Assembly (NCBI GenBank): GCA_020525365.1
Contig: JAIZOF010000001.1
Coordinates: forward strand, 1 to 64,000
Origin: Sulfurovum sp.
GTDB taxonomy: Bacteria > Campylobacterota > Campylobacteria > Campylobacterales > Sulfurovaceae
Length of the DNA stretch: 64,000 bases
Direction of reading: 5' to 3'
The position numbers were made by a program, and so were the translations under genes. The notes below the pieces were generated by a model. That model ran no database searches. It saw only the letters and a program-made list of their open reading frames with translations, and was not told the DNA's origin. Positions 2,764 to 62,587 of this stretch are shown here, one piece after another (the first letter of the stretch is position 1; every line of letters begins with the position of its first letter).

Positions 2764-3177
2764 ATGCCTAAGCTTATACTGCTCTTTACCTTTGGTGCTA
2801 CACTACTATTTTCTGAAGCAACAATGGTACGTGACACCCGAACTGGTCTAATGTGGGAAGATACATCACATACAAAAGAGACAAAAATCACTCATCCACG
2901 TGCTAAAGCCTACTGTCACCAACTAAAACTTGGTAATTTTAGTAATTGGCGACTGCCAACCATTAAAGAACTCTTAAGTATCGTTGACTATAACCGTATA
3001 GAACCAGCAACTCTTAAAGTTTTTGACTACATCAAGGAAGACTCTTTCTACTGGACATCCACACCTGTTGCCAAAGAAGATGATGAGTTTTGGGGTATTA
3101 ACTTCAAACACGGGGAAAGTAGTAGAGCTTCAGAATATTATGACCGTTATGTACGTTGTACTAGAAATATAAAATAA
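2764..3177 (+). CDS. Secreted DUF1566 (Lcl C-terminal-like) protein
   Basis: 137-residue protein with an N-terminal hydrophobic signal segment (about residues 1-19) and a DUF1566 domain: a TRTGLMWED motif near residue 26, WRLPTIKEL in the middle, FYWTS and a final YVRCTR. The strong ribosome site AGGAGG lies 5 nt before the ATG. The next gene begins 3 nt after its stop, so it appears to be the first gene of the plus-strand pts operon. DUF1566 proteins are usually exported and of unknown function. A link to GlcNAc uptake rests only on position. Confidence 0.8.
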   Translation: MPKLILLFTFGATLLFSEATMVRDTRTGLMWEDTSHTKETKITHPRAKAYCHQLKLGNFSNWRLPTIKELLSIVDYNRIEPATLKVFDYIKEDSFYWTSTPVAKEDDEFWGINFKHGESSRASEYYDRYVRCTRNIK

Positions 3178-3180
3178 CCA

Positions 3181-5001
3181 ATGTTCTTATTTAATCGACT
3201 CTTTGCCAAAAGCCATACAATTGTATTGCATATTCTCTCATCTAATGGGTTTCATTTACGCCCTGTAGCACAATTTACTACTGAAGCCAAAAAGTTCTCT
3301 TGTAGTGTTGAAGCAGAGAGTCGTGGTAAAGTTATCAATGCTAAAAACCTCAATGAACTTCTATCACTCAACCTTGATAAGGGTGATCATTTTGATCTCA
3401 TCTGTAGAGGAACGGATGCTGATAAGGCCATAGAAAAACTTTCTCAAGTCTTTGAAGCACTCATGGAAAAAGAACCTGAATACAATACTATAAAGGAGAC
3501 CAGAAATCATTATGATGGTACTCACTTAAATGGAAAAATCATTGTGTCTGGGGTTACGATTTCCTCATTATGGCACTACAGTAAAACTACTACAAAGAAA
3601 ATAACTGGTACAGTATTTTCTGAAGCAATTACTATGAGTATTGCTGAATTAGAGTATCTCTACATCACACATCAGGCTCAAGCTGATAATACAATCTATC
3701 TTGCCCAAAAAGTATTACTTGAGTCCCTCGCACACATCAATTCACTTCATGATTTTGAAAAATATATAATACAAAAAAGCGAAGCACTTCATGGTGGTAA
3801 AATGGAGGCAAAGATTGTCGATTACCAAGATATTCTTCAGCGAGTCAAAAGACACCTAGGCTACCATACTACAATAAACTACCCTTCCAATACATTCATA
3901 CTAGTTGCAGAGGATCTTCTTCCTTCGCAAATAGAAGCATTACCAAAGCAAGTACAGGGGGTTGTTCTCAAAAATACATCACCCGCCTCCCATACTGCTA
4001 TTCTACTACGTGCAACGGGAATTCCATCTCTAATCATTCAGGAGAATTTACCACAGATAGAGGAGAGTGTTATCCTCGATGCATACAGTGGTACACTTGT
4101 TATATCTCCAACAAAAGAAGATATATGTAAAGCTCAAGCATGCATCAGTCAAGAAAAAGAGACTTTAAATACAGCCAATCAAAAACGTTTTGAAAAAGCA
4201 GTCACATCTGATGGTATCTCTGTCAAAATACTTGCCAACATCACTGATGTTACTTCAGCAAAGATTGCTAAAAATTCAGGTGCGGAAGGGATTGGGTTGC
4301 TGCGCACTGAGTTTCTTTTTAAAGAGAAACTTCCTTCCTTTAAAGAACAACAAGATATCTATAAGGCTATTTTTAATCTTTTTGATGACGTAACCATACG
4401 TACCCTCGATGTGGGAGGGGACAAGTCATTGCCTTATATTGACATTCCTCAAGAGAATAATCCATTTTTAGGTATCCGCGGTATTCGCCTACTTAAAACT
4501 CACCCAGAACTTATTGAAGCACAATTACATGCCATCTTTATTGCCGCAGAAGGCAAGGCACTTAAAGTGATGTTTCCCATGATTGCTACTGTAAAAGAGT
4601 TCAATGAAGCCAAGCATTTTGCACAGAAAATAGCAAAAAAGCATCATATTAATATTGATAACATTATGTTTGGTATCATGGTAGAAATACCTTCTGTTCT
4701 CTTTCAGATAGAGGCATTCAACGAGATAGTCGATTTCTACTCCATTGGTACTAATGATCTCAACCAATATCTATTTGCCATCGAACGAACCCATCCTTTG
4801 CTAACCCTAGACCCATATTCACAAGTACTCTTTGATACTATCAAGAAGATTCACAAAGAGGCAGATAAGCCTATCAGTATCTGTGGAGAAATAGCTAGTG
4901 ACAGCAAAGTAGTGCCTTGGCTAATCACACATGGTATCACTACACTCAGCCTTTCAGCACAGAAAATTCCCACTATCAAGGAGACTATCCGACATGTTTA
5001 A
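3181..5001 (+). CDS. ptsI: HPr-enzyme I fusion of the phosphotransferase system (PtsHI)
   Basis: 606-residue cytoplasmic protein that takes phosphate from PEP and passes it to sugar-specific enzymes II. Residues 11-95 form an HPr domain with the phospho-histidine at H25 in GFHLRP. The rest is enzyme I: the active-site His is H271 in SPASHTAIL, the PEP-binding segment GIGLLRTEFLF is at 370-380, and the catalytic Cys lies in ICGEIASD near the C-terminus. No separate HPr gene is nearby. No ribosome site precedes the ATG, which lies 3 nt after the DUF1566 stop, so translation is probably coupled. It overlaps nagE by 8 nt. The two-domain arrangement is clear from the motifs. Confidence 0.92.
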   Translation: MFLFNRLFAKSHTIVLHILSSNGFHLRPVAQFTTEAKKFSCSVEAESRGKVINAKNLNELLSLNLDKGDHFDLICRGTDADKAIEKLSQVFEALMEKEPEYNTIKETRNHYDGTHLNGKIIVSGVTISSLWHYSKTTTKKITGTVFSEAITMSIAELEYLYITHQAQADNTIYLAQKVLLESLAHINSLHDFEKYIIQKSEALHGGKMEAKIVDYQDILQRVKRHLGYHTTINYPSNTFILVAEDLLPSQIEALPKQVQGVVLKNTSPASHTAILLRATGIPSLIIQENLPQIEESVILDAYSGTLVISPTKEDICKAQACISQEKETLNTANQKRFEKAVTSDGISVKILANITDVTSAKIAKNSGAEGIGLLRTEFLFKEKLPSFKEQQDIYKAIFNLFDDVTIRTLDVGGDKSLPYIDIPQENNPFLGIRGIRLLKTHPELIEAQLHAIFIAAEGKALKVMFPMIATVKEFNEAKHFAQKIAKKHHINIDNIMFGIMVEIPSVLFQIEAFNEIVDFYSIGTNDLNQYLFAIERTHPLLTLDPYSQVLFDTIKKIHKEADKPISICGEIASDSKVVPWLITHGITTLSLSAQKIPTIKETIRHV

Positions 5002-6370
5002 CCTATCTCAACATATTGGTAAGGCACTGATGACCCCCATTGCTATTCTACCTGTAGCGGCATTACTGCTTCGTCTTGGATTTGGTGATATTTTTGAAGG
5101 ACAAGTTGCCCTTATAATGAAAAGTGCTGGAGAGGCTATCTTTTCCAATCTTGACCTACTTTTTGGCATCGGTATTGCCTATGGACTAGCAAAAAATAAT
5201 GATGGAGCAGCAGCACTTTCTGGAGCCATTGGCGTGTTTATTGCCAAAGCAGTCTATATGAACATTGACAATACGGTTAACATGGGGGTTTTTGTCGGCA
5301 TTATTATCGGGGTAGTTACAGGGATACTTTATAATCGCTATCATACTATTAAACTGCCTGAGTTTCTTGGATTCTTTGGAGGAAAACGTTTCATACCTAT
5401 CATAACTGCTCTTGTTGCTATTATCGTAGGAGTACTTTCTGGCTACTTTTGGCACTATGCACAAAATGGTATTGATGCTTTTTCTAATACTATCATTGGG
5501 TTGGGTGAAATAGGTACCTTTATCTATGGTGTACTTAATCGTCTACTGATTCCCCTAGGGCTACACCATATTCTCAACTCAGTCTTCTGGTTCCAGTTGG
5601 GTGAGTATAGTTATCTCAAGGATGGCGTACAAGTAGTTGCCAACGGTGATCTACACCGCTTCTTTGCCGGTGATCCAAGTGCAGGCATTTATATGTCTGG
5701 TTTCTATGTGGTAATGATGTTTGGTCTACCTGCTATTGCATATGCAATTTATCTTAATACTCCCAAAGCCCATCGCAAGAAAGCTGGTGCCATCCTTGCA
5801 GGAGTTGCATTTACCTCATTCTTGACAGGTATCACCGAACCATTAGAGTTTCTCTTTCTTTTTGTTGCACCAGTACTCTTTGTTATCCATGCCCTCTTGA
5901 CTGGGCTTGCACTTGCCATAGCCCAAGGACTCAATATTCATGCTGGATTTGGCTTCTCTGCTGGTCTCATTGACTACCTCATCAATTACAAACTTGCTAC
6001 TCACCCTCTCCGACTTGTTATGTTGGGGCTTGCATTTACTCCTATTTACTTTATTGTCAGTTACTATACCATTAAGATATTCAAACTCAAAATATTTGAA
6101 ACCGAATCCTCCCATAAAAATAGTGAAGATGCAGATAAAACTGTGACTGCCTTTATTAAAGCCTTGGGCGGTATTGATAATATTATAAACACCGATGCTT
6201 GTATTACTCGTTTACGAATGAGTGTTAAAAGTAGTCATAATTTAAAAGATGAAGATTTCATAAGGCTGGGGGCAAAAGGAGTTATCAGACCAGATAAGCA
6301 TTCAATCCAAATTGTACTTGGCACAAAAGCAGAAGGTATAGCAGAGAAAATTAAAGTATTGACTACTTAA
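4994..6370 (+). CDS. nagE: PTS GlcNAc-type permease, IIC-IIB (NagE)
   Basis: 458-residue inner-membrane permease that imports and phosphorylates an amino sugar. It has an N-terminal IIC part with many hydrophobic segments and characteristic stretches (LLIPLGLHH, FFAGDPSAGIYM, GITEPLEF). A C-terminal IIB domain carries the phospho-cysteine near residue 403 in DACITRLR. No IIA domain is fused; the IIA gene is next door on the other strand. I chose the ATG at 4994, inside the last codons of ptsI, because the protein then begins like other family members; an upstream start would add 21 unrelated residues. GlcNAc specificity follows from IICB similarity and from the nearby nagA; glucose cannot be fully excluded. 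Confidence 0.88.
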   Translation: MFNLSQHIGKALMTPIAILPVAALLLRLGFGDIFEGQVALIMKSAGEAIFSNLDLLFGIGIAYGLAKNNDGAAALSGAIGVFIAKAVYMNIDNTVNMGVFVGIIIGVVTGILYNRYHTIKLPEFLGFFGGKRFIPIITALVAIIVGVLSGYFWHYAQNGIDAFSNTIIGLGEIGTFIYGVLNRLLIPLGLHHILNSVFWFQLGEYSYLKDGVQVVANGDLHRFFAGDPSAGIYMSGFYVVMMFGLPAIAYAIYLNTPKAHRKKAGAILAGVAFTSFLTGITEPLEFLFLFVAPVLFVIHALLTGLALAIAQGLNIHAGFGFSAGLIDYLINYKLATHPLRLVMLGLAFTPIYFIVSYYTIKIFKLKIFETESSHKNSEDADKTVTAFIKALGGIDNIINTDACITRLRMSVKSSHNLKDEDFIRLGAKGVIRPDKHSIQIVLGTKAEGIAEKIKVLTT

Positions 6371-6406
6371 TATCCTCAATACTTTATTGTTGCTACAATA
6401 GTAGCA

Positions 6407-6877
6407 TTAGGTTACCTTCATTACAACATCACCACACTTAACAATAGATAACTTTTTCTCTATCTGCTGAACATCACTCTCTTCAGAGATAATAATAGGA
6501 GTGATAATGTCTCTGGCATGTATCACAATATAATCCAAGTCAACTTTAATTACCGGATCACCTGCAGTAATGCTATCACCCTCATTAACCAAACGTTCAA
6601 AGCCTTTTCCTTCAAGTGCTACCGTCTCTAACCCAATATGTACCATCACTTCAAGATCTTTGTCACTTTTAATACTATAAGCATGATTGGTTAAAAATAT
6701 CTTGCTAACAGTACCACTAATTGGGGCACAGAATATATCTCCTATAGGCTTGATGGCAACCCCATCTCCAACCATTTTATTAGCAAATACCTCATCTGGT
6801 ACTTCGGTAATATCAACCACCTGTCCATCAATAGGCGAAACTACCTCTCTTAGCTTTCGTTTGAATAATTTGAACAC
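6407..6877 (-). CDS. crr: PTS enzyme IIA, glucose/GlcNAc type
   Basis: 156-residue IIA(Glc)-family protein. The active pair is H65 and H80, the latter in VMVHIGLETV, with the usual SPIDG motif near the N-terminus. It would relay phosphate from HPr to the IIB domain of NagE. The start is GTG with AAAGGAG 7 nt upstream, lying inside the 3' end of nagA (28-bp overlap), so the two are co-transcribed. It converges on nagE with a 36-bp gap that contains a short hairpin (TATTGT/ACAATA) but no good T tract. Confidence 0.9.
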   Translation of the reverse strand: MFKLFKRKLREVVSPIDGQVVDITEVPDEVFANKMVGDGVAIKPIGDIFCAPISGTVSKIFLTNHAYSIKSDKDLEVMVHIGLETVALEGKGFERLVNEGDSITAGDPVIKVDLDYIVIHARDIITPIIISEESDVQQIEKKLSIVKCGDVVMKVT

Positions 6878-8010
6878 TGTATACTCCTTTGGTATTTAAC
6901 CTCTCCTTCTACTATGGTTGTTATAATATTCAAATCTTTATCAAAAATAACCAAATCAGCATCATAACCTAACATAAGTTTTCCCTTTTTTAATCTAAGT
7001 TTTTCTGCCGGTAGTTGTGTTACACTTAAAATTGCTTCTGGAAGTGTCATTTCTGTATATTCTACCATATTTCTAAGGGCTTCATTCATGCGTAGCACAC
7101 TACCTGCTAGAGTACCATCAGCAAGTGCTGCTTTACCCTCCGATACAGTAACATCTCTTCCTCCAAGATCATATCTACCACACTTCATACACCCAGCACG
7201 CATTGCATCGGTAATAAGTATTAGATGCCCTTTTTTCATTTGATGGCTTAAGTGTAAATGATGGGGGTGTACATGTATTGTATCAGCAATAATATCTGCT
7301 GTAACTTCATCTCGGTCAAAACAGGCACCCACAATCCCTGGTCTTCGATGATGGTATGAAGACATGGCATTAAATAGGTGTGTTACGTGGGATACCCCAG
7401 CATCAAATGCTTTTATGCTCTCATCATAATTTGCTTTTGAATGCCCAATACTCAAAATTAGTTCAGGATATCTCCTCTTCATCATTTCAATAAATGCCAT
7501 ACCCTGCGCTACCTCTGGTGCCAATGTGATTATACGGATAATATCAAGATAAGGCTCTATCCATTCACTCTGTGGAGACTGTATATAGCATTTATCCTGT
7601 GCACCATTTTTAGAGGCATTGATAAATGGTCCCTCAAGGTGTGCACCAAGGATCTGTGCACCAGATAATCTACCAAGAGAGGCTTTGATGTTTGCCAATG
7701 CCGCCTCTATCTTCTCTTGACTCATAGTCATTGTTGTTGCAAGAAATGCTGTTGTTCCTGTCTGTAGAAGTGTTTTTGAGAGTGTTTCAAGTGCTAAAGG
7801 GGTAGCATCCATTACATCTACACCACCACTGCCATGGATATGTATATCAATAAATCCAGGGCTTACATATGCCCCTTTAGCATCAATAGTGTCTACATCA
7901 TTAATATTGATATTGCTATCAATATCTATAATCTTATTGTTAAATAAAAGTATCTGGTCTTCAATAACCTTATTGCCTATAATCAATTTGGCATTGATAA
8001 GTGCTGTCAT
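6850..8010 (-). CDS. nagA: N-acetylglucosamine-6-phosphate deacetylase
   Basis: 386-residue amidohydrolase that removes acetate from GlcNAc-6-P in the cytoplasm. Visible motifs are the HxH pair (H57, H59 in DIHIHG), HLEGPF with the metal-binding Glu near residue 130, SIGHS, a VTHLFNAM His and the LITDAM catalytic Asp. Length is normal for NagA. It lies 27 bp after nfo and overlaps crr, in the lipoprotein-nfo-nagA-crr operon. No nagB deaminase is seen in this window, so the next step (to fructose-6-P, or recycling to cell wall) is encoded elsewhere or differs. Confidence 0.93.
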   Translation of the reverse strand: MTALINAKLIIGNKVIEDQILLFNNKIIDIDSNININDVDTIDAKGAYVSPGFIDIHIHGSGGVDVMDATPLALETLSKTLLQTGTTAFLATTMTMSQEKIEAALANIKASLGRLSGAQILGAHLEGPFINASKNGAQDKCYIQSPQSEWIEPYLDIIRIITLAPEVAQGMAFIEMMKRRYPELILSIGHSKANYDESIKAFDAGVSHVTHLFNAMSSYHHRRPGIVGACFDRDEVTADIIADTIHVHPHHLHLSHQMKKGHLILITDAMRAGCMKCGRYDLGGRDVTVSEGKAALADGTLAGSVLRMNEALRNMVEYTEMTLPEAILSVTQLPAEKLRLKKGKLMLGYDADLVIFDKDLNIITTIVEGEVKYQRSIQCSNYSNES

Positions 8011-8037: not shown

Positions 8038-8928
8038 TTAAGTTTCAATAAAATCATACAATGCCTTAATCTCCTCCGTCCATATCTCCTCATTAATAGT
8101 CTCTAATACCAATGGAATATCATCCATTCTTGGATCATTCATAATAAAATGGAACGCATCCCAGCCAATTTCACCAAATCCTAGTGAATGGTGACGGTCT
8201 ACACGTGATCCAAGTGGTGGCTTGGAGTCATTAATATGCATCCCCATCAAATATTCAAATCCAACAATATTGCCAAATGTATCCATTGTCTTATCATAAG
8301 CTTTACGGGTACGCAAATCATATCCTGCAGTGAAAGTATGACAGGTATCTAAACAAACACCCACACGACTTTTATCCTCAACTTTCTCTATGAGGTGTGC
8401 CAAGTGTTCAAATTTATAGCCAAGATTGCTCCCTTGCCCAGCAGTATTCTCAATAACCAACTTAACACTAGAGCCTTCTGTTGCCTCTATGGCAAAATTA
8501 ATTGACTCAGCAATAATATCAAGACAATGTATTTCTGCTTCTATCAACTTCTCTTCATAATGTGCGTCATGTTTAGATATCTTAACAAGATGAGAGCCTG
8601 GATGAAAATTGAGCTTCTCTAGCCCCAACTGTTCACATCGTTTTAACTCATCAATAAATGCTTCACGAGATTTCTCTAGCTTATCTGTTTCAGGATGCCC
8701 AAGATTAATCAAGTAAGAATCATGTGGAAGCACATGCCTAGAAAGGATACCACTTTTTTCAAGATTTGACTTAAATGCTTCAATAGAGGCTTCCGTCAGT
8801 GGCTTAGCAACCCACTGACGCTGATTCTTGGTAAAAAGAGCAAAGGCTTTTGCCCCTATATGCATTGCATTAAGAGGCGCATTCTCTACTCCTCCACTGG
8901 CACTCACATGTGCTCCTACAAATTTCAT
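8038..8928 (-). CDS. nfo: Endonuclease IV (AP endonuclease)
   Basis: 296-residue zinc-dependent AP endonuclease of base-excision repair. It opens with the family signature [13 protein letters not shown] and contains the metal-binding stretches [26 protein letters not shown] and a late LETIN. Length matches the family. It starts 3 nt after the upstream lipoprotein gene, so the two are one transcript that continues into nagA. Confidence 0.95.
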
Positions 8929-43060: not shown

Positions 43061-43720
43061 TGTATTCTAAGTACACACATCATTTAGATATTTCAATATA
43101 AAAAATCTTCTTCAATGGAATTATTGCTTTTATTATCGTAATTATATGGAATATTTCCTATTTTGTTAAAGTATATTTTGAAAGATGTGGAAATGACCAA
43201 AAGAATTAGCTAAAAACTTGATATTAGGCGTAAACTGGACTCATGGGAAGAAGAAACGTCGGAGGTAATGCGACTTATTAAGTTAGTTAGCCGCAGAACA
43301 ACATACAAGGATGTCAGATGTTGACAGAGTTAAAAAATAATATTATAAGTCAAGGCAGCAGCCACTTAATGTTAAAAAAAGATCAGAGTTTTACTAGGTA
43401 TAGAACTGGAACCAATGATGTGGTAAAGAGTTTTGTGTAAGCTTTTGGAGGAGATCAGGTCAGTATTAGTGCAGTTGGATATTTAAGTTCTTCTCTGGAG
43501 GCATTTGGGAAATACATTACAAGAAATTTATAGAAAAGCAGGAGGATCAAACTGATAACCTCTGTAGAACTGACAGAAGCAGACAGTAATGCAATTGAAC
43601 AAAAGGTCTTAGCAAGCAAGAAGTATGTGAAAACTGGGATCAATACCATTATTGAAAAATGAATTTAAAGAAAATGTGGGAACAGGAGTTACTAAGTTAT
43701 CCTAACGAAATAGGAGGCTT
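43061..43720. other. Indel-rich stretch, gene content unresolved
   Basis: No reading frame stays open. Short plus-strand runs around 43555-43650 (VELTEADSNAIEQKV) faintly resemble the C-terminus of an ATP synthase delta subunit, but this is too weak to name. The right edge at 43721 is a sharp junction to a clean block also found at 47764 and 49098. Confidence 0.4.
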
Positions 43721-45086
43721 CAAAATGAGACACAAGTACATAACTGCCAGCCAGTAAAGCACTACTGTGTTTTACTTTCACATAGTATGTTCCAGCTGTG
43801 ACACTTTTTGAGATTTTAAAGTTACTATAGGCTGAACCATTATCATCAGATGCAATCTGATGACCATTTGCATTCAAAAGAGTTCCGTATGTATCTGTTA
43901 AGCCGGTTGTCTTTACAACCAGTGTTCCTCTACTGTGGATTTGGATTTTAAAGAAATCTACATCCCCATCTACTTCAATGCGCCCCTGCGTTGTACTGTT
44001 TGGATTGATGGGTTTTGCTGTACTTCTGGTATTGCCATAATCATCAGATATAAACTGAGAAATAAGCGTATAATAACCAATTGATGAAGCACTACTGTGT
44101 TTTACTTTCACATAGTATGTTCCAGTTGAGACACTTTTTAAGATTCTAAAGTTACTATAGGTTGAACCATTATCATCAGATGCAATCTGATGACCATTTG
44201 CATTCAAAAGAGTTCCGTATGTATCTGTTAAGCCGGTTGTCTTTACAACCAGTGTTCCACTACTGGGGATTCGGATTTTAAAGAAATCTACATCCCCGGC
44301 TACTTCAATGCGCCCTTGTGTTGTACTGTTTGGATTGATAGATGTTGCTGCAATTCTACTACTGGTATGATCATCAGGCACAAAATGAGACACAAGCGCA
44401 TAAGAACCAATTCCTGTAGGACTATGATGTCTCACTTTCGCATAGTATGTCCCAGCTGTGACACTTATTGAGATTCTAAAGTTATGACCTGAACCACTGT
44501 TGTCATCCAATGCAAGCTGGGCACCGCTTCCGCCTAAAAGGGATCCATATGTATCTGTTGAGCCAGTTGTATTGATAATTAATGTTCCTCTTTTTCCACT
44601 AGGGATTATGATTTTAAAATAATCTCCACTTCCAGCTGCTTCAATACGCCCCCGTGTTGTACTTTTGAGAGCTATGGGTGTTGCTGTATTGTTACCATGA
44701 TCATCAGAACCACCTGTTCTAGGCGATGGTATATAAAATTTTTGATTGATGCCACCATGACAACGCCATAAAATAAGATCTGTTCTGTTTCCCCCATGAA
44801 CATCTAAACATTTATGAGAAGCAATATGTAAAAACCGTTTTGTTTTATCAAGATAAGAGAATATTTGTTCTGCACTATTTGGTTGACACCGAGTATATGT
44901 TATTTTTGATCCATTACTATATGATTGGGCAGTTAAACACTTATTGGTTGAAGGGTCTCTTAGTGACCTGTTTGAAGTATAGATCAATAACTGATTTGCA
45001 CTTGAAGCATTACACGTTCGTTTTTTAGCATAGTCCCCAACGTTGGTGATGCATCCCCCACCAAATGCACGTGTAGATACTTTCAA
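43692..45086 (-). pseudogene. Lectin-PPC protein fragment (piece A)
   Basis: Open minus-strand frame of 464 codons without a genuine start or end. It begins inside a ricin-B-type lectin domain (STRAFGGGCITN to YIPSPRTGG, about 135 residues, with QxF/QxW-like repeats NQLLIY, EQIFSY and NQKFYI), then three PPC domains of ~100 residues each with GDxDxFKI...GTYYVKVKH cores. Bases 43721-44691 look identical to 47764-48734 and 49098-50068, and 44692-45081 to 51423-51812. Both ends run into unrelated noisy sequence, so this is a mosaic piece rather than a gene. Confidence 0.7.
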
Positions 45087-45340
45087 ATGATTATATAGAT
45101 GGGCTTGTTGCTATTAAGTGTTTAGATGAGGGTGTGGATATTCCAAGTGTTGAGTGCATTCATCTTGGCAAGCAGTTCCTAATCCAAGAGTTTATTATTC
45201 AACGAAGAGAGACGAGTGCTTAGACAAGTAAAGAAACTAATTAAAAAATTTGCATATATTTATGACTTCTTAGTCATACCAAACCCAGAAAAAGATAATC
45301 TCTTGATCCGGAACCTATAAAAATGGAGAGAAACTATCTT
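45082..45340 (+). pseudogene. Helicase fragment (superfamily 2), indel-rich
   Basis: Translating the plus strand with frame changes gives VAIKCLDEGVDIPS, then FIIQRRE, then a run like PRKR/LDPEPIKMERNYLEK. These match helicase motifs V and VI of DEAD/ResIII-type proteins. Only about 80 residues are present and at least four frameshifts are needed. It is inserted between two lectin-PPC pieces at sharp edges. Confidence 0.5.
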
Positions 45341-46014
45341 GAAAAAGATATACCTTGTGTTTGACCTGCTTGGGTAGGTGTAAAACGAGATATCAGTGAA
45401 TAAGGACCAGTTGCCGCAGAAGAATGGAGTTTCACTTTTACATAATACGTTCCAGCTGTCACCCTTTTTGAAATTCTAAAGTTACGGCCTGAACCACCAT
45501 TATCATCTAATGCAATTTGATCCCAGTTTGCATTTAAAAGGTATCCAACTGTATCTGTTGGTCCAGTTGTATGAACAACCAATGTTCCTGTACTAGGGAT
45601 TCCAATTCTAAAGTAATCGTTATCCCTGGCTATTTGAAGACGTCCTGGTGTTGTACTATTTGGGTTGATGGCTGTTGCTGTATACACGTAACCGCCATGA
45701 TCAGATTCAAGGCTTATATCTAACCAATACGTACCAATTCCCGAAGAAGAAGGGTGTTTTACTCTCACATAATATGTTCCAGCCGCTACACTTCTTATGA
45801 TTAAAAAATTATGACCTGAACCACCATTGTTATCTGCTGCAATTTGACTACCATCTGCATTGTAAAGGTATCCAACTGTATCTGTTTGTCCAAGTGTCTG
45901 GATCATCAATATGCCTGTACGAGGCATTACAACTTTAAACCAATCCTCATCTCCAGCGACTTCAATGCTTCCTGATATTCTACCGTTCAGCCTTGTGGTT
46001 GTTGCTGCATTCAT
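45334..46014 (-). pseudogene. Lectin-PPC C-terminal fragment (piece B)
   Basis: Clean minus-strand frame of 226 codons holding two PPC domains (GDEDWFKVVM... and RDNDYFRIGI...) and a C-terminal tail ending TQAGQTQGISFSR. Bases 45697-46032 match 50416-50751. It looks like the true C-terminus of the gene whose N-terminal parts are at 51128-52309: a noisy plus-strand relative at 55.8-56.44 kb has the two parts in this order. The first Met is only an internal codon. Confidence 0.65.
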
Positions 46015-46032
46015 ACTATTGCCATGATCATC

Positions 46033-46789
46033 TATAGATAGTCCTAAAACGATATGAATAAAATTTTAAGCAAAAGAATTAAAGAAGTATTTCTTTTTGA
46101 TGAGGAAGCAATGATGATAAGTTAACTAGACCGGAAGATAAAGATATGAAGATGGTATTAAAAAATATTATGGGGATTACTATCTGTAGAAAAGGGATTA
46201 AACACACAAGAAGCTAAAAATACGAGCTGGTGGATAAAATAAAATTCAGAAGGTGAAGTTTCTCCATATGAAAGAAGAAGATGGGCTTATTACCAGAACT
46301 AGATGAATATAAAATTAAACTAAAAAATAATAAACAGAAAGAGAACCAAACTTGCTGAGAAAGAAAAAGTTCCAGATGAATTAAAAAGTGTTGAAGAGCG
46401 AAAAAACATGAAAAGCTGAAAATTGAAAGGAGACTGCCTTAGAAGAGTATAATTTTGAATATCAGAATTAATTGAAAGAAAAAGGTCTTATAAGCAAAAA
46501 GGCATATCTCGCTTCTTTCAAGTGACTTAGTACTTTGAAAATGCATCAGTTTAGATGAAAAAGAAAAGAGGTGAACTGCCGTCAGGTATTCGGGAACCAG
46601 TTTACATACAGAGATCTCTCGTGATTGCCACATATGTGTGCATCTTTAGTTAAGGAGATGTTCATGTGGAGCATCTGAAAGTCTTTTCGCAAATGTTTGA
46701 AGAAAAAGTGTCGAAGATGGATTCTAAGATTGAATTGCTTTTACAGATAAAATGTCAGATGTGAAAAAACTTAAAGAAAAGCTTTTAAC
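46033..46789. other. Indel-rich stretch, unidentified
   Basis: No open frame. Fragments on the plus strand are Lys/Glu-rich (for example KSVEERKNM and KEKRGELPSGI) and resemble a coiled-coil or nuclease-associated protein, but I cannot name it. Both edges abut clean lectin-PPC blocks. Confidence 0.35.
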
Positions 46790-47110
46790 AGCAATATGTA
46801 AAAACCGTTTTGTTTTATCAAGATAAGAGAATATTTGTTCTGCACTATTTGGTTGACACCGAGTATATGTTATTTTTGATCCATTACTATATGATTGGGC
46901 AGTTAAACACTTATTGGTTGAAGGGTCTCTTAGTGACCTGTTTGAAGTATAGATCAATAACTGATTTGCACTTGAAGCATTACACGTTCGTTTTTTAGCA
47001 TAGTCCCCAACGTTGGTGATGCATCCCCCACCAAATGCACGTGTAGATACTGGAGAAGCATATGTTTGTGTTACTATAAAAAACAGCAACAATCCTATAA
47101 CCTTTTTCAT
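46724..47110 (-). pseudogene. Lectin-PPC N-terminal fragment (piece C)
   Basis: It has the ATG at 47108-47110 with AAGGGGGA upstream, a signal peptide (MKKVIGLLLFFIVTQTYAS), then about 90 residues of the ricin-type lectin domain, broken off at 46790 where noise begins. Bases 46790-47154 match 51989-52353. It retains the family leader and promoter at 47141-47225. Confidence 0.7.
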
Positions 47111-47140
47111 CAAAATCCCCCTTACTTAATTAATTTTATG

Positions 47141-47225
47141 ATTAGTACTGTTATTACAATACACCCTTAGATAAACATACCATTGTACCACAAGCAAAAC
47201 GGCAATAATCTTACAAAATAAATAT
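47141..47225 (-). promoter_or_regulatory. Conserved leader and promoter of the lectin-PPC family
   Basis: On the minus strand TTGCCGTTTTGCTTGTGG precedes TACAAT (47182-47187, with TG three bases before), then TTTATCTAAGGGTGTATTGT. The same string, with small changes, stands before the plus-strand genes at 53968 and, less clearly, 56711 and 60202. There is no strong -35 box. Confidence 0.55.
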
Positions 47226-47228
47226 GTT

Positions 47229-47282
47229 CAGTGGAAGTACCAAGGAAGTCAATGGTGTTATGAAAAAACACCACTTCCACTG
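47229..47282. repeat. Nested inverted repeat at a PPC gene end
   Basis: CAGTGGAAGT (47229-47238) and ACTTCCACTG (47273-47282) are exact reverse complements. Inside them GGTGTT (47254-47259) and AACACC (47267-47272) form a second pair. It lies where the PPC frame ends early (GSGVFS, stop), so it may be a join artefact or a terminator. Confidence 0.4.
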
Positions 47283-49066
47283 GTGAAAAGAACCAATGTT
47301 CCTCCACTGGGGATTTGGATTTTAAAGTAATCTTTATCATTAGCTACTTCAATGCGCCCCTGTGTTATGCTATTTGGCTCGATGGGTGTTGCTCCACCTC
47401 TACTGTCGTCATGATCATCAGGCACAAAACGAGACACAAGCAGATAATCACCGGTTGATGAAGGGTTACGGTGTTTTACTTTCACATAATATGCTCCAGG
47501 CATCGTTATGAGCTTTGAGATTTTAAAGTTATTGCCTGAACCACTATTGTCATCAGATACAATTTCTCTGCCACTTACGCTAGAAAGGTATCCTTGTGTA
47601 TCTGTTGTTCCAGATGTATATATAATTAATTTTCCTCCTCCGTCAGGGACTCGGATTTCAAAGTAATCTTCATCCCCAGCAAAGTCAATGCGCCCCCGTG
47701 TTGTACTGTTTAGGTCTATGGATGTTGCCAGACTTCTGCTGTCACCATGATCATCATCAGATACAAAATGAGACACAAGTACATAACTGCCAGCCAGTAA
47801 AGCACTACTGTGTTTTACTTTCACATAGTATGTTCCAGCTGTGACACTTTTTGAGATTTTAAAGTTACTATAGGCTGAACCATTATCATCAGATGCAATC
47901 TGATGACCATTTGCATTCAAAAGAGTTCCGTATGTATCTGTTAAGCCGGTTGTCTTTACAACCAGTGTTCCTCTACTGTGGATTTGGATTTTAAAGAAAT
48001 CTACATCCCCATCTACTTCAATGCGCCCCTGCGTTGTACTGTTTGGATTGATGGGTTTTGCTGTACTTCTGGTATTGCCATAATCATCAGATATAAACTG
48101 AGAAATAAGCGTATAATAACCAATTGATGAAGCACTACTGTGTTTTACTTTCACATAGTATGTTCCAGTTGAGACACTTTTTAAGATTCTAAAGTTACTA
48201 TAGGTTGAACCATTATCATCAGATGCAATCTGATGACCATTTGCATTCAAAAGAGTTCCGTATGTATCTGTTAAGCCGGTTGTCTTTACAACCAGTGTTC
48301 CACTACTGGGGATTCGGATTTTAAAGAAATCTACATCCCCGGCTACTTCAATGCGCCCTTGTGTTGTACTGTTTGGATTGATAGATGTTGCTGCAATTCT
48401 ACTACTGGTATGATCATCAGGCACAAAATGAGACACAAGCGCATAAGAACCAATTCCTGTAGGACTATGATGTCTCACTTTCGCATAGTATGTCCCAGCT
48501 GTGACACTTATTGAGATTCTAAAGTTATGACCTGAACCACTGTTGTCATCCAATGCAAGCTGGGCACCGCTTCCGCCTAAAAGGGATCCATATGTATCTG
48601 TTGAGCCAGTTGTATTGATAATTAATGTTCCTCTTTTTCCACTAGGGATTATGATTTTAAAATAATCTCCACTTCCAGCTGCTTCAATACGCCCCCGTGT
48701 TGTACTTTTGAGAGCTATGGGTGTTGCTGTATTGACATTATATCCATAATCATTGGGTATAAAATGAGATACAAGTGCATAAATACCTGTTCCCGTAGTA
48801 CCACTGTGTCTCACTTTTACATAGTATGTTCCAGCCACTGTGATGAACTTTGAGATTTTAAAGTTATGGTTCGAACTACTTATATTATCATTGGATGCAA
48901 GCTGGACACCACTTGCATTGTAAAGATATCCTTTTGTATCTGTGGTGTCAGTTGTCTCTACAACCAGTGTTCCGGTACGAGGGATTACGATTTTAAACCA
49001 ATCTACGTCCCCAACTTTATTAATATGTCCTAATGTTGTGCTGTTTAGGTCTATGGATGTTGCTGT
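47258..49066 (-). pseudogene. PPC-repeat protein piece, 3' part (piece D)
   Basis: Open minus-strand frame with six PPC domains (about 100 residues each). Each has a GD-D-F/Y-F/K start, a GTL/LVV...TDT-G core and a YYVKVxH end. The frame has no start: at 49066 it meets the second copy of a 1334-bp duplication in a different frame. Removing one duplicate would join it to the frame above and give about 791 residues. The 3' end breaks in mid-domain at 47258. Confidence 0.65.
47733..49066. repeat. 1334-bp tandem duplication, first copy
   Basis: It appears base-for-base equal to 49067-50400 and abuts it exactly, head to tail. The length is not a multiple of three, so the join shifts the reading frame. 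The unit spans four PPC domains and parts of neighbouring ones. Confidence 0.85.
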
Positions 49067-50967
49067 CTTCTGCTGTCACCATGATCATCATCAGATACAA
49101 AATGAGACACAAGTACATAACTGCCAGCCAGTAAAGCACTACTGTGTTTTACTTTCACATAGTATGTTCCAGCTGTGACACTTTTTGAGATTTTAAAGTT
49201 ACTATAGGCTGAACCATTATCATCAGATGCAATCTGATGACCATTTGCATTCAAAAGAGTTCCGTATGTATCTGTTAAGCCGGTTGTCTTTACAACCAGT
49301 GTTCCTCTACTGTGGATTTGGATTTTAAAGAAATCTACATCCCCATCTACTTCAATGCGCCCCTGCGTTGTACTGTTTGGATTGATGGGTTTTGCTGTAC
49401 TTCTGGTATTGCCATAATCATCAGATATAAACTGAGAAATAAGCGTATAATAACCAATTGATGAAGCACTACTGTGTTTTACTTTCACATAGTATGTTCC
49501 AGTTGAGACACTTTTTAAGATTCTAAAGTTACTATAGGTTGAACCATTATCATCAGATGCAATCTGATGACCATTTGCATTCAAAAGAGTTCCGTATGTA
49601 TCTGTTAAGCCGGTTGTCTTTACAACCAGTGTTCCACTACTGGGGATTCGGATTTTAAAGAAATCTACATCCCCGGCTACTTCAATGCGCCCTTGTGTTG
49701 TACTGTTTGGATTGATAGATGTTGCTGCAATTCTACTACTGGTATGATCATCAGGCACAAAATGAGACACAAGCGCATAAGAACCAATTCCTGTAGGACT
49801 ATGATGTCTCACTTTCGCATAGTATGTCCCAGCTGTGACACTTATTGAGATTCTAAAGTTATGACCTGAACCACTGTTGTCATCCAATGCAAGCTGGGCA
49901 CCGCTTCCGCCTAAAAGGGATCCATATGTATCTGTTGAGCCAGTTGTATTGATAATTAATGTTCCTCTTTTTCCACTAGGGATTATGATTTTAAAATAAT
50001 CTCCACTTCCAGCTGCTTCAATACGCCCCCGTGTTGTACTTTTGAGAGCTATGGGTGTTGCTGTATTGACATTATATCCATAATCATTGGGTATAAAATG
50101 AGATACAAGTGCATAAATACCTGTTCCCGTAGTACCACTGTGTCTCACTTTTACATAGTATGTTCCAGCCACTGTGATGAACTTTGAGATTTTAAAGTTA
50201 TGGTTCGAACTACTTATATTATCATTGGATGCAAGCTGGACACCACTTGCATTGTAAAGATATCCTTTTGTATCTGTGGTGTCAGTTGTCTCTACAACCA
50301 GTGTTCCGGTACGAGGGATTACGATTTTAAACCAATCTACGTCCCCAACTTTATTAATATGTCCTAATGTTGTGCTGTTTAGGTCTATGGATGTTGCTGT
50401 ATCTATACGATTACTATGATCAGATTCAAGGCTTATATCTAACCAATACGTACCAATTCCCGAAGAAGAAGGGTGTTTTACTCTCACATAATATGTTCCA
50501 GCCGCTACACTTCTTATGATTAAAAAATTATGACCTGAACCACCATTGTTATCTGCTGCAATTTGACTACCATCTGCATTGTAAAGGTATCCAACTGTAT
50601 CTGTTTGTCCAAGTGTCTGGATCATCAATATGCCTGTACGAGGCATTACAACTTTAAACCAATCCTCATCTCCAGCGACTTCAATGCTTCCTGATATTCT
50701 ACCGTTCAGCCTTGTGGTTGTTGCTGCATTCATACTATTGCCATGATCATCAGAACGTTGTAGTGTAAAGTTTACAACAAGTGTATAACGACCTGTTCCC
50801 CCAGAAGAATTGTGTTGTACTTTTACATAATATGTTCCAGCTGTTACACGCTCTTCAATGTTAAAGTTAGAATATGAACCAGCATCATCATCCAATGCAA
50901 TACGGCCACCACTTGCATTTAAAAAATATCCCAATGTATCTGTTGACCCAGTTGTATAAATAGTCAA
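49051..50967 (-). pseudogene. PPC-repeat protein piece, 5' part (piece E)
   Basis: Open frame of 638 codons with PPC domains only. It begins inside a domain: the frame is open upstream to a TAA near 51066, and no signal peptide is attached. At the duplication join it runs out of frame (GDSRRQQHP, stop), whereas piece D continues GDSRSLATS. Predicted to be an envelope or secreted protein like the rest of the family. About 75 bp of unrelated sequence (51060-51135) separates it from the lectin piece above. Confidence 0.65.
49067..50400. repeat. 1334-bp tandem duplication, second copy
   Basis: Second copy of the unit at 47733-49066. The inner 971 bp (49098-50068) also occurs at 43721-44691. Confidence 0.85.
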
Positions 50968-51127
50968 TTTTCCTGCACTAGGGATTACGATTTTATAGTA
51001 ATTGCTATCTCCAGGTAATTTAATATTTCCTGATGTTGTACTGTTTCGACTTATAAATTACGCCCCTCTTTGCCCATTGCTCAACTAGGTGCATATGGGA
51101 CCACTACAAGTAACTGATACATAGCCT

Positions 51128-52309
51128 TCAGGGAGGTCCCGAAGAAAAACTGTGATGTCTCACTTTGACATAATATGTTCCAGCTGTTACATTTTGTGAG
51201 AATTTAAAGTTACGATTTAATCCACTATTATCATCACCAACAAGAGTGAATGAACCCTGTGCGCCAAAAAGGCATCCGTATGTATCTGTTAATCCAGTTG
51301 TATTTACAATTAATCTTCCCGAACGAGGGATTACAATTTTAAACCAATCTTCATCTCCAGCTAGTTCAATACTTCCTGATGTTGTACTATTTGGTTTTAC
51401 AATTGTTGCTCTACTTCTATCATTACCATGATCATCAGAACCACCTGTTCTAGGCGATGGTATATAAAATTTTTGATTGATGCCACCATGACAACGCCAT
51501 AAAATAAGATCTGTTCTGTTTCCCCCATGAACATCTAAACATTTATGAGAAGCAATATGTAAAAACCGTTTTGTTTTATCAAGATAAGAGAATATTTGTT
51601 CTGCACTATTTGGTTGACACCGAGTATATGTTATTTTTGATCCATTACTATATGATTGGGCAGTTAAACACTTATTGGTTGAAGGGTCTCTTAGTGACCT
51701 GTTTGAAGTATAGATCAATAACTGATTTGCACTTGAAGCATTACACGTTCGTTTTTTAGCATAGTCCCCAACGTTGGTGATGCATCCCCCACCAAATGCA
51801 CGTGTAGATACTGGAGATGTTGTACTATTTGGTTTTACAATTGTTGCTCTACTTCTATCATTACCATGATCATCAGAACCACCTGTTCTAGGCGATGGTA
51901 TATAAAATTTTTGATTGATGCCACCATGACAACGCCATAAAATAAGATCTGTTCTGTTTCCCCCATGAACATCTAAACATTTATGAGAAGCAATATGTAA
52001 AAACCGTTTTGTTTTATCAAGATAAGAGAATATTTGTTCTGCACTATTTGGTTGACACCGAGTATATGTTATTTTTGATCCATTACTATATGATTGGGCA
52101 GTTAAACACTTATTGGTTGAAGGGTCTCTTAGTGACCTGTTTGAAGTATAGATCAATAACTGATTTGCACTTGAAGCATTACACGTTCGTTTTTTAGCAT
52201 AGTCCCCAACGTTGGTGATGCATCCCCCACCAAATGCACGTGTAGATACTGGAGAAGCATATGTTTGTGTTACTATAAAAAACAGCAACAATCCTATAAC
52301 CTTTTTCAT
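51128..52309 (-). CDS. Secreted protein with two ricin-B-type lectin domains and a PPC domain (partial)
   Basis: Starts at the ATG at 52307-52309, with GGGGGA 6 nt upstream (an in-frame TTG precedes it). A signal peptide of about 20 residues is cut near TYAS. Then come two lectin domains of 146 residues that look identical, from an exact 438-bp in-frame duplication. Each has CITNVGDY, NQLLIY, KCLTAQ, EQIFSY, KCLDVHGG and NQKFYI, the beta-trefoil pattern of sugar-binding ricin-B domains. A PPC domain (GDEDWFKIVI to YYVKVRHH) follows, then the frame breaks at 51128. Predicted to be exported and to bind carbohydrate; the target is unknown. Confidence 0.75.
   Translation of the reverse strand: MKKVIGLLLFFIVTQTYASPVSTRAFGGGCITNVGDYAKKRTCNASSANQLLIYTSNRSLRDPSTNKCLTAQSYSNGSKITYTRCQPNSAEQIFSYLDKTKRFLHIASHKCLDVHGGNRTDLILWRCHGGINQKFYIPSPRTGGSDDHGNDRSRATIVKPNSTTSPVSTRAFGGGCITNVGDYAKKRTCNASSANQLLIYTSNRSLRDPSTNKCLTAQSYSNGSKITYTRCQPNSAEQIFSYLDKTKRFLHIASHKCLDVHGGNRTDLILWRCHGGINQKFYIPSPRTGGSDDHGNDRSRATIVKPNSTTSGSIELAGDEDWFKIVIPRSGRLIVNTTGLTDTYGCLFGAQGSFTLVGDDNSGLNRNFKFSQNVTAGTYYVKVRHHSFSSGPP
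51378..51815. repeat. 438-bp in-frame duplication, first copy
   Basis: Appears identical to 51816-52253 and directly adjacent. 438 is 146 codons, so the frame is kept and the lectin domain is doubled. Confidence 0.85.
51816..52253. repeat. 438-bp in-frame duplication, second copy
   Basis: Second copy of the 51378-51815 unit. Its lectin part recurs at 44692-45081 and, partly, at 46790-47154. Confidence 0.85.
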
Positions 52310-52353
52310 CAAAATCCCCCTTACTTAATTAATTTTATGATTAGTACTGTTAT

Positions 52354-52935
52354 CAATATCTCTCTTTTACCAAAAACAAAACAGGAGATCTATTTATTGC
52401 ATCCCAAAGTGAATTTACTTCTCTTGCGTGAATCCTTGAAAAAAGCAATAAGCCTATCATGCCTTTTATGCACGATATAAAATCGAACATAATGAAACAG
52501 TAGCTGATAATCTCTTCCTCTTGTGACACTATTCTATCTAAAAAATCAATTTTTATAATTTTATGTTTATTTACTGTTGAGCCTCCTCCGGATACGAATA
52601 ATCTCAAGGACTATGAATTGCAGGCAAAGTATTTTTTGTCGGATAACTATGCCTATCCTAAATCTTTAACTCAATGATAAAACCATGTAAACATGGCAAA
52701 ACCTTGTCATTTTGGACTAAAATAAAATGAGTTGAAATGCTTAACAAAAAGAGGATTAGTTCAATTAATGGAGTTAGAAAAGTAGTTTAGATTTACAATG
52801 AATGTATCTATGAAAAGAATCTTAGAAAAATAGCCTCAAGGCTCACTAATCCAAGAGCATGGAAAACCGACTCTACCTGTGAGAGAACAAGATCATAAAA
52901 CTACAAGGAGGCCAGCAATAGGTAAGAATTTAGAT
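52354..52935 (-). repeat. Right arm of the ~570-bp inverted repeat
   Basis: Reverse complement of 42500-43060 with frequent small indels. Its inner edge falls exactly where the promoter of the lectin gene should be, so that gene's own promoter is replaced here. There is no gene within it. Confidence 0.7.
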
Positions 52936-52939
52936 ATTA

Positions 52940-53620
52940 ACGATGAACAGTGGTGGGAGTTAGAGGTATTTGAAGTGTAATATATTGCAGTTAAAATGGA
53001 AAAAATACTCAATGAAAAAATGGTAGCTGATAACGATGGTCAAGGTTTGATTTAATTGCTGAGTGCAATCCACGGGTGCAATTATTGCTGGGTTGAGCAA
53101 GGGTAGATGCAGTTGTCTTTGTGAGATGTATAAGGAATACAATGATTTTGGAAAAAATATGAGGAAAGATTCCCTTTCAATATTTTCCTTTTCGCTTTTT
53201 GTTCAAATATAAATCAACCAATCTTGAAGCAATGTAAATACTTTGGAGATGGCACATTTGAAGATGTCAAACTGATTTGATAGTGACATCTGTTGATGTG
53301 CCAAGATGATACGACTTTACAAGACAGATCGTTTAACAACATACTGGACAGGTGTTTAACACAAATGCCCTTTTGGCTTCAGTGCTGCACCACATACTTT
53401 AAGGTTGATAGAAGGTCCAAAGCATTCGGACTACTTGGTTGATGGAAGTATTGCTGCCAACAACCCATCACTGCAGTTATTGACGCATTACAACTTGAAA
53501 ATAAAAGATAAAGATGGCTCCCGCCTCTATATCAGTTTATAGTCTTATTGTCAATGGGTACTGGAAAGGTTGATGCATTGCCATGTGACTTATAGATATT
53601 CTTCCATTTTAACCACTTTT
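52940..53620 (+). pseudogene. Patatin-like phospholipase, indel-rich
   Basis: With frame changes the plus strand reads, near 53040-53130, a damaged GTSTGAIIAG (serine nucleophile motif GxSxG) and LCEMYKEY; then YFGDGTFEDVK near 53240; and SRLYIS followed by LLSMGTGKV near 53520-53575. The order fits a patatin-like lipid acyl hydrolase. At least six frameshifts are needed. A second, shorter piece lies at the window end. I suspect sequencing error more than gene decay. Confidence 0.55.
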
Positions 53621-53967
53621 TACGCTCTTGACGTAATGCATTTAAATCCACCACTATCCTTCAATTTATCAAAGTAGAGCGTACAACATTGCTGTCTGCT
53701 ACTTTTTTAGATAGGCTTTTTTAATTTTTATATCAAATAGTGGTCTATCAGTGGCACTCGTTGTTACATTTTCTATCTTTTTAACAGTCTTCTTCTGGAT
53801 GATGTGACTCGAGACATTGCGTAAATTGATAAGTTGAACCGAAAGGCAAATAGCTGAATCAAAACACATTTGCCGTTTTGTTTGTGTTACAATAGTCATT
53901 TTATCTAAGGGGTGTATTGTGGTTACTAATCAATACAAATGAAAAATCAATCAGTGGGAGAATTTTG
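53621..53967. other. Gene-poor stretch with family leader
   Basis: Mostly without an open frame. The leader of the next lectin-PPC gene occupies 53868-53967, including TACAAT at 53888-53893 and ATCTAAGGGGTGTATTGT; the equivalent minus-strand leader is at 47141-47225. Confidence 0.45.
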
Positions 53968-56440
53968 ATGAAAAGGTTATAGGATTGTTGCTGTTTCTTA
54001 CCCAGCAACGAGTATGTGTCTTGCTACCGATGACCATAGTGACGTTAGGATATTGGCACTCTCCAATCAAACAGTACAACACCAGGGCGCATTAACACAA
54101 TTAAGGATGTAGTTTTATGTTTCAGACTTTTTTGGTTAAAAAGTATGGGATAGAGAAGGTCAATGGTTTTTTCAAGGAGTACTCTAAGCAGTATTTTCCT
54201 TTTGGGATCAATAAGATGGTAACTTAAGTAATAACTTTAGAATCTCAGAGAAGTGTAACAGCTGGAATATATTATATAAGGTTAGACACCTTTTATATGA
54301 CGAACAGTACTTATTAAGCTTGTCTCAGTTTACATCTGACAGAGGTTCCAGCAATACAACGCAAAACCACGGATATCTACACGTGCATTTGGTGAAGTGC
54401 ATCACAAAGTTGAGCTATGCTAAAACAAACCTGTAATGATTCAACACACATAGAACTTGGAGTATGAATAATCACTCAAAACTCGCCTGAACCACTTCAA
54501 GCAATCAATGTTTAACAGTTTCAATCACATGACAATGGTCAAAATAGTATTTGCTCGTCTTGAAGAAAGTAACTAAGAGCAAAACTTTCTTATCATAACG
54601 ATACTACACAAGTTTATCCATACTGTCTTTTCTAATAAGTGTTTAGATATTCATGGAGAAACAGAACAGACCTTATTTTATGGAGTTGTCATGGTGGGTG
54701 TTAACCAGTAATTTTATGTACAGCCTGAGGTACACAGCTGGTCAATACAGATTAGTTCTGCATCGCAGAACCTATTAATACAGAATCACAAGTATCTACA
54801 TGCGGTGGAGGATGTATCACAAGGTTGGAGAACTATGCAAAAGACGAACTGTGGTACTAGTAATCAGTCGTTAACCTATACTTCAAACAGGGCATAGAGA
54901 CCTGCAAGCAATAAGTGTTTAACTTTGCCCAATCTAATAATAGTCAAAATCTTTAATGTCAAAATAGTGACCAGTATTCATATCTGAAACTCGTAAGTTT
55001 TATGTGCTTCTCGCCATGTTTTAGATATTCATGGAGGAAACAAAACAGATCTTGTTACATGGCGTTGTCATGGTGGCACAACAAAAATTTTCATCGCCTA
55101 GAACAAGTGGTTCTGATGATCATGGTAATGATAGGGTAGGAGCAACTTAGTTGTAAAACACATGAGTACAACATCAGGAAATATTGAACTAGCTGGAGAT
55201 GAAGATTGGTTTAAAGTATATCCACCGTTCGGGGAAGATTATTGTAAATACAACTGGATTAACAGATACATGAGATGCTGGTGCCTGGGAGTTCATCCTG
55301 TTGGTGATGATAATGATGGATTAAATCGTAACTTTGGTGCTCACAAAATGTAACAGCTGGAATACATATTATGTCAAAGTGAGAGAGACATCACAGTTTT
55401 CTTCGGGACAGTCGCTATTCGCTTGTTGTAAACTTTATATTACAAGTTCTGATAATCATTAGTATGAAGTAGAATACTGCAGCAATACCTGTAAGTCAAT
55501 AGTACAACATCAGGAAATATTAAATTACCTGGAGATATGAGTACTATAAAATCGTAATCCTAGTGCGAGAAAATTGACTATTTAATACAACTGGGTCAGC
55601 AGATACATTGGGATATTTTTTTTTAAGAAATGCAGAAGTGTTGAAATGTGTGCATTGGATGAGATGCTGGTTCATATTCTGCTTTAACATTGAAGGCGAT
55701 GGCAGCTGGAACATATTATGTAAAGAGTACAACACAACTACTGGGGAACAGGGGTGTTAGCTTGTTGTAAACTTTACACTACAACGTTCACAGTGATCAT
55801 GGCAATAGTATGAATGCAGCAACAACCACAAGGCTGAACGGTAGAATATCAGGAACATTGAAGACAGCTGGAGATGAGTTGGTTTAAAGTTATGTGCCTC
55901 GGCACAGGCATGATGATGAATCGAACACTTGGACAAACAGATACAGTTGGATACCTTTACAATGCAGATGGTAGTCAAATTACAGCAGATAACAATGGTG
56001 GTTCAGGTCATAATTTTTAATCATAAAGTGTAGTAGCTGGGTATATTATGTGAGGTAAGACACGAATCTCTTCAGGGGTGGTGCGTGTTGGTTGAATAAG
56101 TAACCAGATCTGATCATGGCAGTTGATGTATGCAGCAACAGCCATCAACCGTGAGTACAACACTGGGACGATGTGTGTGGGGATAACAGTGCTAGGGTGG
56201 GTGGTAGGAACATTGATTGTTCCTTCAACCTGGACCGACAGACACCAGTTGGATACCTTTTAAATACAAACTGAGATCAAATTGCATTAGATGATAATGG
56301 TGGTTCTGGTAGTAACACTGGGAATTTCAAAGGTGACGCTGGAACGTGTTATGTAAGTGAAACTCCATGCTCTGCGACAACTGGTCCTTATTCACTGATA
56401 TCTCGTTCTACCGCAGGTCAAACACAAGAGTATAGACAAT
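53968..56440 (+). pseudogene. Lectin-PPC gene 1, plus strand, indel-rich
   Basis: The ATG at 53968 begins a damaged signal sequence like MKRLIGLLLF, followed by a PPC domain, two lectin domains (STRAFG-like starts at 54376 and 54793, and DVHGG-like ends at 54650 and 55030), then PPC domains to about 56440 (end near LISR..AGQTQ). The domain order matches the clean minus-strand pieces 52309-51128, 50967-50420 and 46014-45334 read together, so this shows how the intact gene should run. Single-base losses occur roughly every 10-20 bases. Confidence 0.55.
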
Positions 56441-62570: not shown

Positions 62571-62587
62571 GCATAAAGAATATTTCT

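Follow-up and report, generated by a model that had tools for sequence, protein, structure and literature searches.

A conserved N-acetylglucosamine phosphotransferase system in Sulfurovum and its relatives, with a probable role in anabolic salvage

The first 64,000 nucleotides of contig JAIZOF010000001.1 of a Sulfurovum sp. assembly (GCA_020525365.1), in the following called the window, carry the genes of a phosphoenolpyruvate (PEP)-dependent phosphotransferase system (PTS), probably for N-acetylglucosamine (GlcNAc). Two gene pairs face each other across a gap of 36 bp: an HPr-enzyme I (EI) fusion and a IICB permease of the NagE clade on the plus strand, and a IIA protein and the deacetylase NagA on the minus strand. 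The system is real and is a trait of the window's family, Sulfurovaceae, conserved in 17 of its 30 sampled genomes; its role is probably anabolic. From the sequences we consider it fairly likely that this PTS serves salvage, taking GlcNAc into UDP-GlcNAc. We lean only slightly towards the fuller version of this reading, in which several genera have kept, from their ancestor onwards, a PTS for a single sugar with HPr and EI fused; lacking a deaminase branch, it would spend PEP to recover GlcNAc for UDP-GlcNAc. PTSs are usually taken as signs of sugar catabolism; if the anabolic reading is true, an autotroph would here spare itself some of the high cost of making amino sugars, drawing GlcNAc from the walls of its own cells or of neighbouring ones.

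An earlier note on this DNA had described the four genes as a complete route of uptake and deacetylation. The genes are indeed as described and their phospho-sites are intact; as far as can be judged from the sequence, all four proteins are complete and hold their active residues. In the fusion protein the phospho-sites are HPr His25, EI His271 and Cys568, all conserved in relatives; their roles, like those of the IIB and IIA residues named below, we take to be the ones of their families. The PTS-HPr, PEP-utilizers and PEP-utilizers_C domains all score above the Pfam cut-offs, and the HPr model TIGR01003 (NCBIfam) is matched with 49.1 bits (cut-off 47.9). From the loci of the scan described below we compared 45 fusions that measure 590-660 aa and are fully covered, leaving out partial and longer ones. 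All 45 retain the active-site His, His and Cys; around the Cys our first motif was matched in 38, and the other seven read SLCGE. The regulatory serine of HPr is not conserved, being Ser in some relatives and Asn in the window. A structure model of the fusion, built from the window protein and 39 relatives (mean predicted local distance difference test score 86.8, predicted template-modelling (TM) score 0.61), shows the strand and helix order of HPr, a linker at about residues 97-113, four helices at 146-225, presumably the place where EI binds HPr, and then the PEP domain. Among solved structures, enzyme I chains match the model best; the full-length ones reach TM-scores of 0.42-0.65, so that the domain orientation in the model is not fixed. 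In the draft genome G218 the reading frame of the fusion gene is broken within its HPr part (L027:7764-8036).

The permease is a probable importer of GlcNAc, as its sequence suggests. It groups with NagE rather than with PtsG (support 100/98, Escherichia coli NagE being flagged as a long branch), and it is 47.1% identical to E. coli NagE and 38.5% to PtsG. At nine positions fixed across ten NagE-clade rows and different in both PtsG rows the window has the NagE-type residue throughout. The phospho-site of the IIB domain, Cys403, is invariant in 16 aligned rows. The clade placement, the identities and the nine positions, together with the retention of NagA in all 17 genomes with the native PTS, speak against a permease chiefly for glucose or another hexose, with NagA handling internal GlcNAc-6-phosphate (GlcNAc-6-P) from wall recycling. 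We regard such a glucose-type role as quite improbable. It would fit with the missed model cut-off and the residue states discussed below, and with three observations in relatives: in genome G392, whose four parts are scattered over as many contigs, the permease gene and the glycogen synthase gene glgA are divergently oriented (L026, same contig as L104); in L103 a glycogen synthase gene is found about 7.7 kb from the permease gene; and the family genome G283 keeps NagA alongside a PtsG-type permease.

Both IIA and NagA match their family models above the cut-offs (Table 1). With the PRK09439 equivalog model IIA reaches 172.1, below the cut-off of 212; His80 and its partner His65 align to the solved IIA 3our. 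All four genes appear to be under purifying selection, with ratios of nonsynonymous to synonymous substitution rates (dN/dS) of about 0.07-0.21 in the one close pair compared (G263 and G220); between the window and L066 dN/dS is saturated. In G364 a FadD-type ligase and NagA share one 895-aa frame (L039:12434-15121), an apparent fusion.

The order of the PTS and amino-sugar steps, from PEP over EI, HPr, IIA and IICB to GlcNAc-6-P and glucosamine 6-phosphate (GlcN-6-P), is known. In the route that we infer for the window, PEP would phosphorylate the EI half of the fusion, and the phosphoryl group would pass to the fused HPr, on to IIA and finally to the permease's IIB domain. The NagE-like permease would import GlcNAc as GlcNAc-6-P, from which NagA would strip the acetyl group. 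The resulting GlcN-6-P would meet no recognised deaminase leading to glycolysis; it would pool with the GlmS product and pass through GlmM and a putative GlmU to UDP-GlcNAc for peptidoglycan and lipopolysaccharide, its only recognised exit. GlmM scores 520.6, above its cut-off, in the window's genome. GlmS is present there as well, and altogether in 29 of the 30 family genomes, missing from the draft G387.

The earlier note had found no nagB nearby and had guessed at an entry of GlcN-6-P into cell-wall synthesis. The absence of nagB extends to the whole genome (99.86% complete), in which no PF01182-type NagB was matched at E <= 0.001, and cell-wall synthesis is the best remaining fate for GlcN-6-P. 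The single PF01182 match in the 30 family genomes, in G283, was rejected as NagB: it is the 6-phosphogluconolactonase gene pgl (188.2 over 124.45), situated between zwf and edd. PF01182-type NagB is thus found in 0/30 family genomes. SIS proteins were searched for in the window's genome, the only family genome covered in this respect, and comprise GlmS, a KdsD-like and a GmhA-like protein (named by eye), with no candidate for a SIS-type NagB-II; the protein at 94280, considered for this role, has a single SIS match, is KdsD-like by eye and was rejected. There are no ROK proteins in the window's genome, and hence no ROK-type kinase bypass of the PTS there; ROK proteins occur in 16 of the 30 family genomes, 15 of them above the cut-off.

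These results bear on the possibility that GlcNAc is used catabolically, with an unrecognised GlcN-6-P deaminase or a reversed GlmS channelling it into central metabolism and the supply of nitrogen. In most known nag systems NagA is a step ahead of catabolism, and in many relatives nagA-IIA is linked to genes of fatty-acid-scavenging type, as in a mixotrophic scavenging regulon. We nevertheless think a catabolic role unlikely, given the lack of PF01182-type NagB in all 30 family genomes and of a spare SIS protein in the window's genome. The search for chitinases that the earlier note had proposed alongside that for nagB also argues against it, GH18 chitinases being found in 0/30 family genomes. 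Furthermore, sugar-catabolic genes were seen only in G283 (zwf-pgl-edd), which has a different, glucose-type PTS; pgl, covered by PF01182, is absent from the other family genomes, in which zwf, edd and pfk were not searched.

The suggestion that most members of the phylum are without a sugar PTS agrees with our survey of 397 Campylobacterota genomes, in which HPr was found in 24. The NagE model matches 18 genomes, all from the window's family, and HPr-EI, NagE, IIA and NagA (over its cut-off) occur together in the 17 family genomes and nowhere else. Twelve family genomes lack NagE, HPr and IIA, and in none of them does NagA reach the cut-off; two of these PTS-less genomes, G131 and G207, give weak NagA-like matches. 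The thirtieth, G283, has NagA, a permease above the PtsG cut-off (709.7 vs 647) that clusters with E. coli PtsG in the permease tree, and a IIA-HPr-EI protein; its PTS was rejected as an instance of the native system on account of this permease and of the fusion of HPr-EI to IIA. The PtsG-type permease, the IIA-HPr-EI protein and zwf-pgl-edd were read at two loci (L040, L196), zwf-pgl-edd lying on another contig than the PTS, and G283 has apparently switched to glucose catabolism. Six of the 24 genomes with HPr are outside the family. Five belong to one non-family genus, with fructose-type IIBC-HPr-EI clusters in the two loci read, and G291, also outside the family, has a IIA-HPr-EI protein; L042, L045 and L053 are the three non-family loci that were read, their genes being named by eye. 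The set is therefore not the oddity of a single genome that the earlier note had implied: the genes are spread through one Campylobacterota family, and not beyond it, and the NagE tree agrees. A PTS that chiefly senses or regulates the PEP/pyruvate state and imports sugar only as a side task would suit both the regulatory roles that PTS proteins play elsewhere and the mainly autotrophic life for which Sulfurovum types are known. We hold it to be very improbable: the partners found, in a search that did not extend to other EII classes or to regulators, are a full permease, IIA and NagA, which are inherited together with HPr-EI.

In a NagE tree of 42 rows, the 19 rows of the window's family and named relatives are situated on one side of a branch with support 100/100, on a long stem of 1.5 changes per column. 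They fall into a clade (100/98) with sequences of E. coli NagE, Clostridium, Selenomonadaceae and Thermoanaerobacteraceae; the branch leading to E. coli NagE is likewise long, and the program warns of this join. The outgroups came from one pattern-limited scan of which the best 80 were kept. The proposed comparison of NagE with other phyla thus yielded one clade near the NagE of Firmicutes and E. coli and singled out no donor. In view of the tree and of the family distribution we reject a recent acquisition of the PTS by the window's genome. As species tree we used a single-gene GlmS tree of 29 of the 30 family genomes, in which 10 of the 26 inner branches are strongly supported. Every native-PTS genome is found within one group of 21 (86/83), which also holds three PTS-less g5 genomes, the PTS-less G315 and G283. 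This fits with one gain of the PTS followed by losses; presence of the PTS needs four changes on the tree, and most GlmS branches are weak.

Of the 80 best loci of the same scan, 59 belong to Campylobacterota records, and gene order was compared in these 59. Many of the records bear the name Sulfurovum, among them Sulfurovum sp. AR (L125), while the titles of others go no further than Campylobacterales, Campylobacteraceae, Epsilonproteobacteria or Campylobacterota; the window's own genome, or one very close to it, may be missing here. The counts use strict distances and required room, so that some misses are longer spacings; in L100, for example, HPr-EI is about 1.3 kb away from NagE. HPr-EI is situated just upstream of NagE in 46 of the 58 loci with room. 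In 28 of the 47 with at least 1 kb of room, IIA comes downstream and is encoded on the other strand. The two convergent units pointed out in the earlier note are thus present in the window and common in relatives, rather than a peculiarity. NagA adjoins IIA in 20/25 and a FadD-type gene adjoins NagA in 13/17 loci with room. FadL- and FadD-type genes are found between nfo and nagA in many relatives; in the window there is no gene of either type in this place. Four of the five g4 genomes (L187-L190) have NagA-IIA together with nfo and apart from HPr-EI-NagE, three of these four with FadD-type genes beside NagA-IIA; in the fifth (L033) all four parts, NagA included, are together.

Two sources of GlcNAc could be considered: the cell's own periplasmic wall turnover by a NagZ-like GH3 enzyme, or chitin and wall debris of neighbours. 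The NagZ-like GH3 of the window's genome has a hydrophobic, signal-like start (by eye) and is apparently secreted, and GH3 is present in 26 of the 30 family genomes.

Salvage is favoured by the four intact proteins, their joint inheritance and apparent purifying selection, by the presence of GlmS and GlmM, and by the results for PF01182, SIS, ROK and GH18 given above. Several findings weigh against a salvage PTS of NagE type. The fusion scores 312.6 bits with the EI equivalog TIGR01417 (NCBIfam), short of 341.7, and this divergent EI is therefore named by its domains, residues and fold. Likewise, the IICB protein reaches 524.9 bits with its best NCBIfam model, TIGR01998, below the cut-off of 553.2, which is attained in none of the 397 genomes; for this reason it is called NagE-clade and not filed as an equivalog. 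At 114 discriminating positions, where two PtsG-type rows share a letter other than that of E. coli NagE, 34 letters of the window are those of NagE, 29 those of PtsG and 51 neither. With the cut-offs missed and the residue count nearly tied, the substrate call rests on phylogeny and NagA linkage. GH3 is equally common in relatives with any PTS (16/18) and without (10/12), and the window genome's own GH3 scores 186.7 with PRK05337, below the equivalog cut-off of 207. For pure salvage, deacetylation by NagA is wasteful because GlmU re-acetylates. The FadD-type gene beside nagA in many relatives hints at a scavenging regulon. Finally, a link that speaks for salvage, HPr-EI directly preceding a codirectional glmU with a gap of 46 bp, was seen in a single one of the loci scanned, in G392.

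The nag system of E. coli shares with the Sulfurovum locus a NagE-clade permease, a Crr-type IIA and NagA, and its onward route runs by GlmM and GlmU. Plumbridge reportedly described in 2009 a NagE-dependent recycling of periplasmic GlcNAc in E. coli. In contrast to the Sulfurovum locus, with its fused HPr-EI, separate IIA and no NagB, E. coli has nagB and nagC beside nagA, IIA fused in NagE, and separate HPr and EI. The same parts as in the window are found in a cluster of a Thermoanaerobacteraceae metagenome-assembled genome (MAG) of the Firmicutes (L122; nagB-ptsH-ptsI-nagE-IIA-nagA), with identities of 48% for NagE, 43% for IIA and 40% for NagA. This cluster differs in having separate HPr and EI, in lying on one strand and in including NagB above the cut-off; if an L122-like cluster lost nagB and its ptsH and ptsI became fused, the Sulfurovum form would result.

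Two papers, covering Caulobacter, E. coli and mycobacteria, describe the PTS and amino-sugar steps (PMC13046382, PMC12617635). In Caulobacter crescentus a NagE-type PTS and NagA can supply peptidoglycan recycling; the clusters described differ from the window in containing a homolog of NagB along with a TonB-dependent receptor, and in one case also a hexosaminidase (PMC13046382). Mycobacterium smegmatis imports by a PTS, has NagA and leads GlcN-6-P to the wall via GlmM/GlmU, with the difference that NagB is also present and the permease is described as PtsG (PMC12617635). In the open-licence literature no paper on this PTS in Sulfurovum was among the matches listed. The nearest published mention among them is a vent study in which PTS sugar uptake belongs to a pathway cluster with many pathways complete in several Sulfurovum MAGs (PMC6899741). 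If the PTS serves salvage only, a complete score for PTS uptake in such MAGs should not be taken as heterotrophy.

Table 1. Genes of the PTS locus and its neighbours in the window
Feature	Position	Strand	Basis and remarks
Lcl_C-domain protein	2764..3177	+	Pfam Lcl_C 96.6 bits, above cut-off; signal-like start (by eye); passenger or accessory
HPr-enzyme I fusion, 606 aa, PEP-dependent phosphoryl entry	3181..5001	+	Pfam domains, active-site residues, model and fold matches
NagE-clade PTS IICB permease, 458 aa, probable GlcNAc transporter	4994..6370	+	TIGR01998 best model; tree clade
Crr-type PTS IIA	6407..6877	-	PTS_EIIA_1 155.5 bits; TIGR00830 146.4 bits (cut-off 97.5)
NagA, N-acetylglucosamine-6-phosphate deacetylase	6850..8010	-	TIGR00221 354.5 bits (cut-off 225.65); closest solved structure 2vhl
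nfo (deoxyribonuclease IV)	8038..8928	-	NCBIfam equivalog 473 bits; conserved neighbour outside the PTS system

The IICB gene starts with the ATG at 4994, overlapping the end of the HPr-EI gene by 8 bp and preceded by AAGGAG at 4978-4983; this start was preferred to a longer, merely mechanical open reading frame from 4931. The IIA and NagA genes overlap by 28 bp. The earlier note had placed the Lcl_C-domain gene inside the PTS span. It encodes a separate protein that is no PTS component; ending 3 bp before HPr-EI, the gene is possibly cotranscribed with it, and such a gene precedes HPr-EI in 12 of the 41 related loci with room for it. Scans for promoters (23 found, 20.1 expected) and terminators (4 found, 3.1 expected) stayed near expectation.

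Apart from the PTS locus, positions 43692-52312 of the window (minus strand) contain 330-bp units in arrays of 8.6 and 2.2 copies, two copies of a 438-bp unit that are 100% identical, and repeated, near-identical open reading frames. This region could encode a fast-evolving surface protein or be an assembly artefact. The adjoining stretch of about 11 kb (52300-64000) holds only three open reading frames of at least 110 aa, each doubtful, and the frame at 61649-62101 resembles, by eye, a frame-broken piece of the repeat protein.

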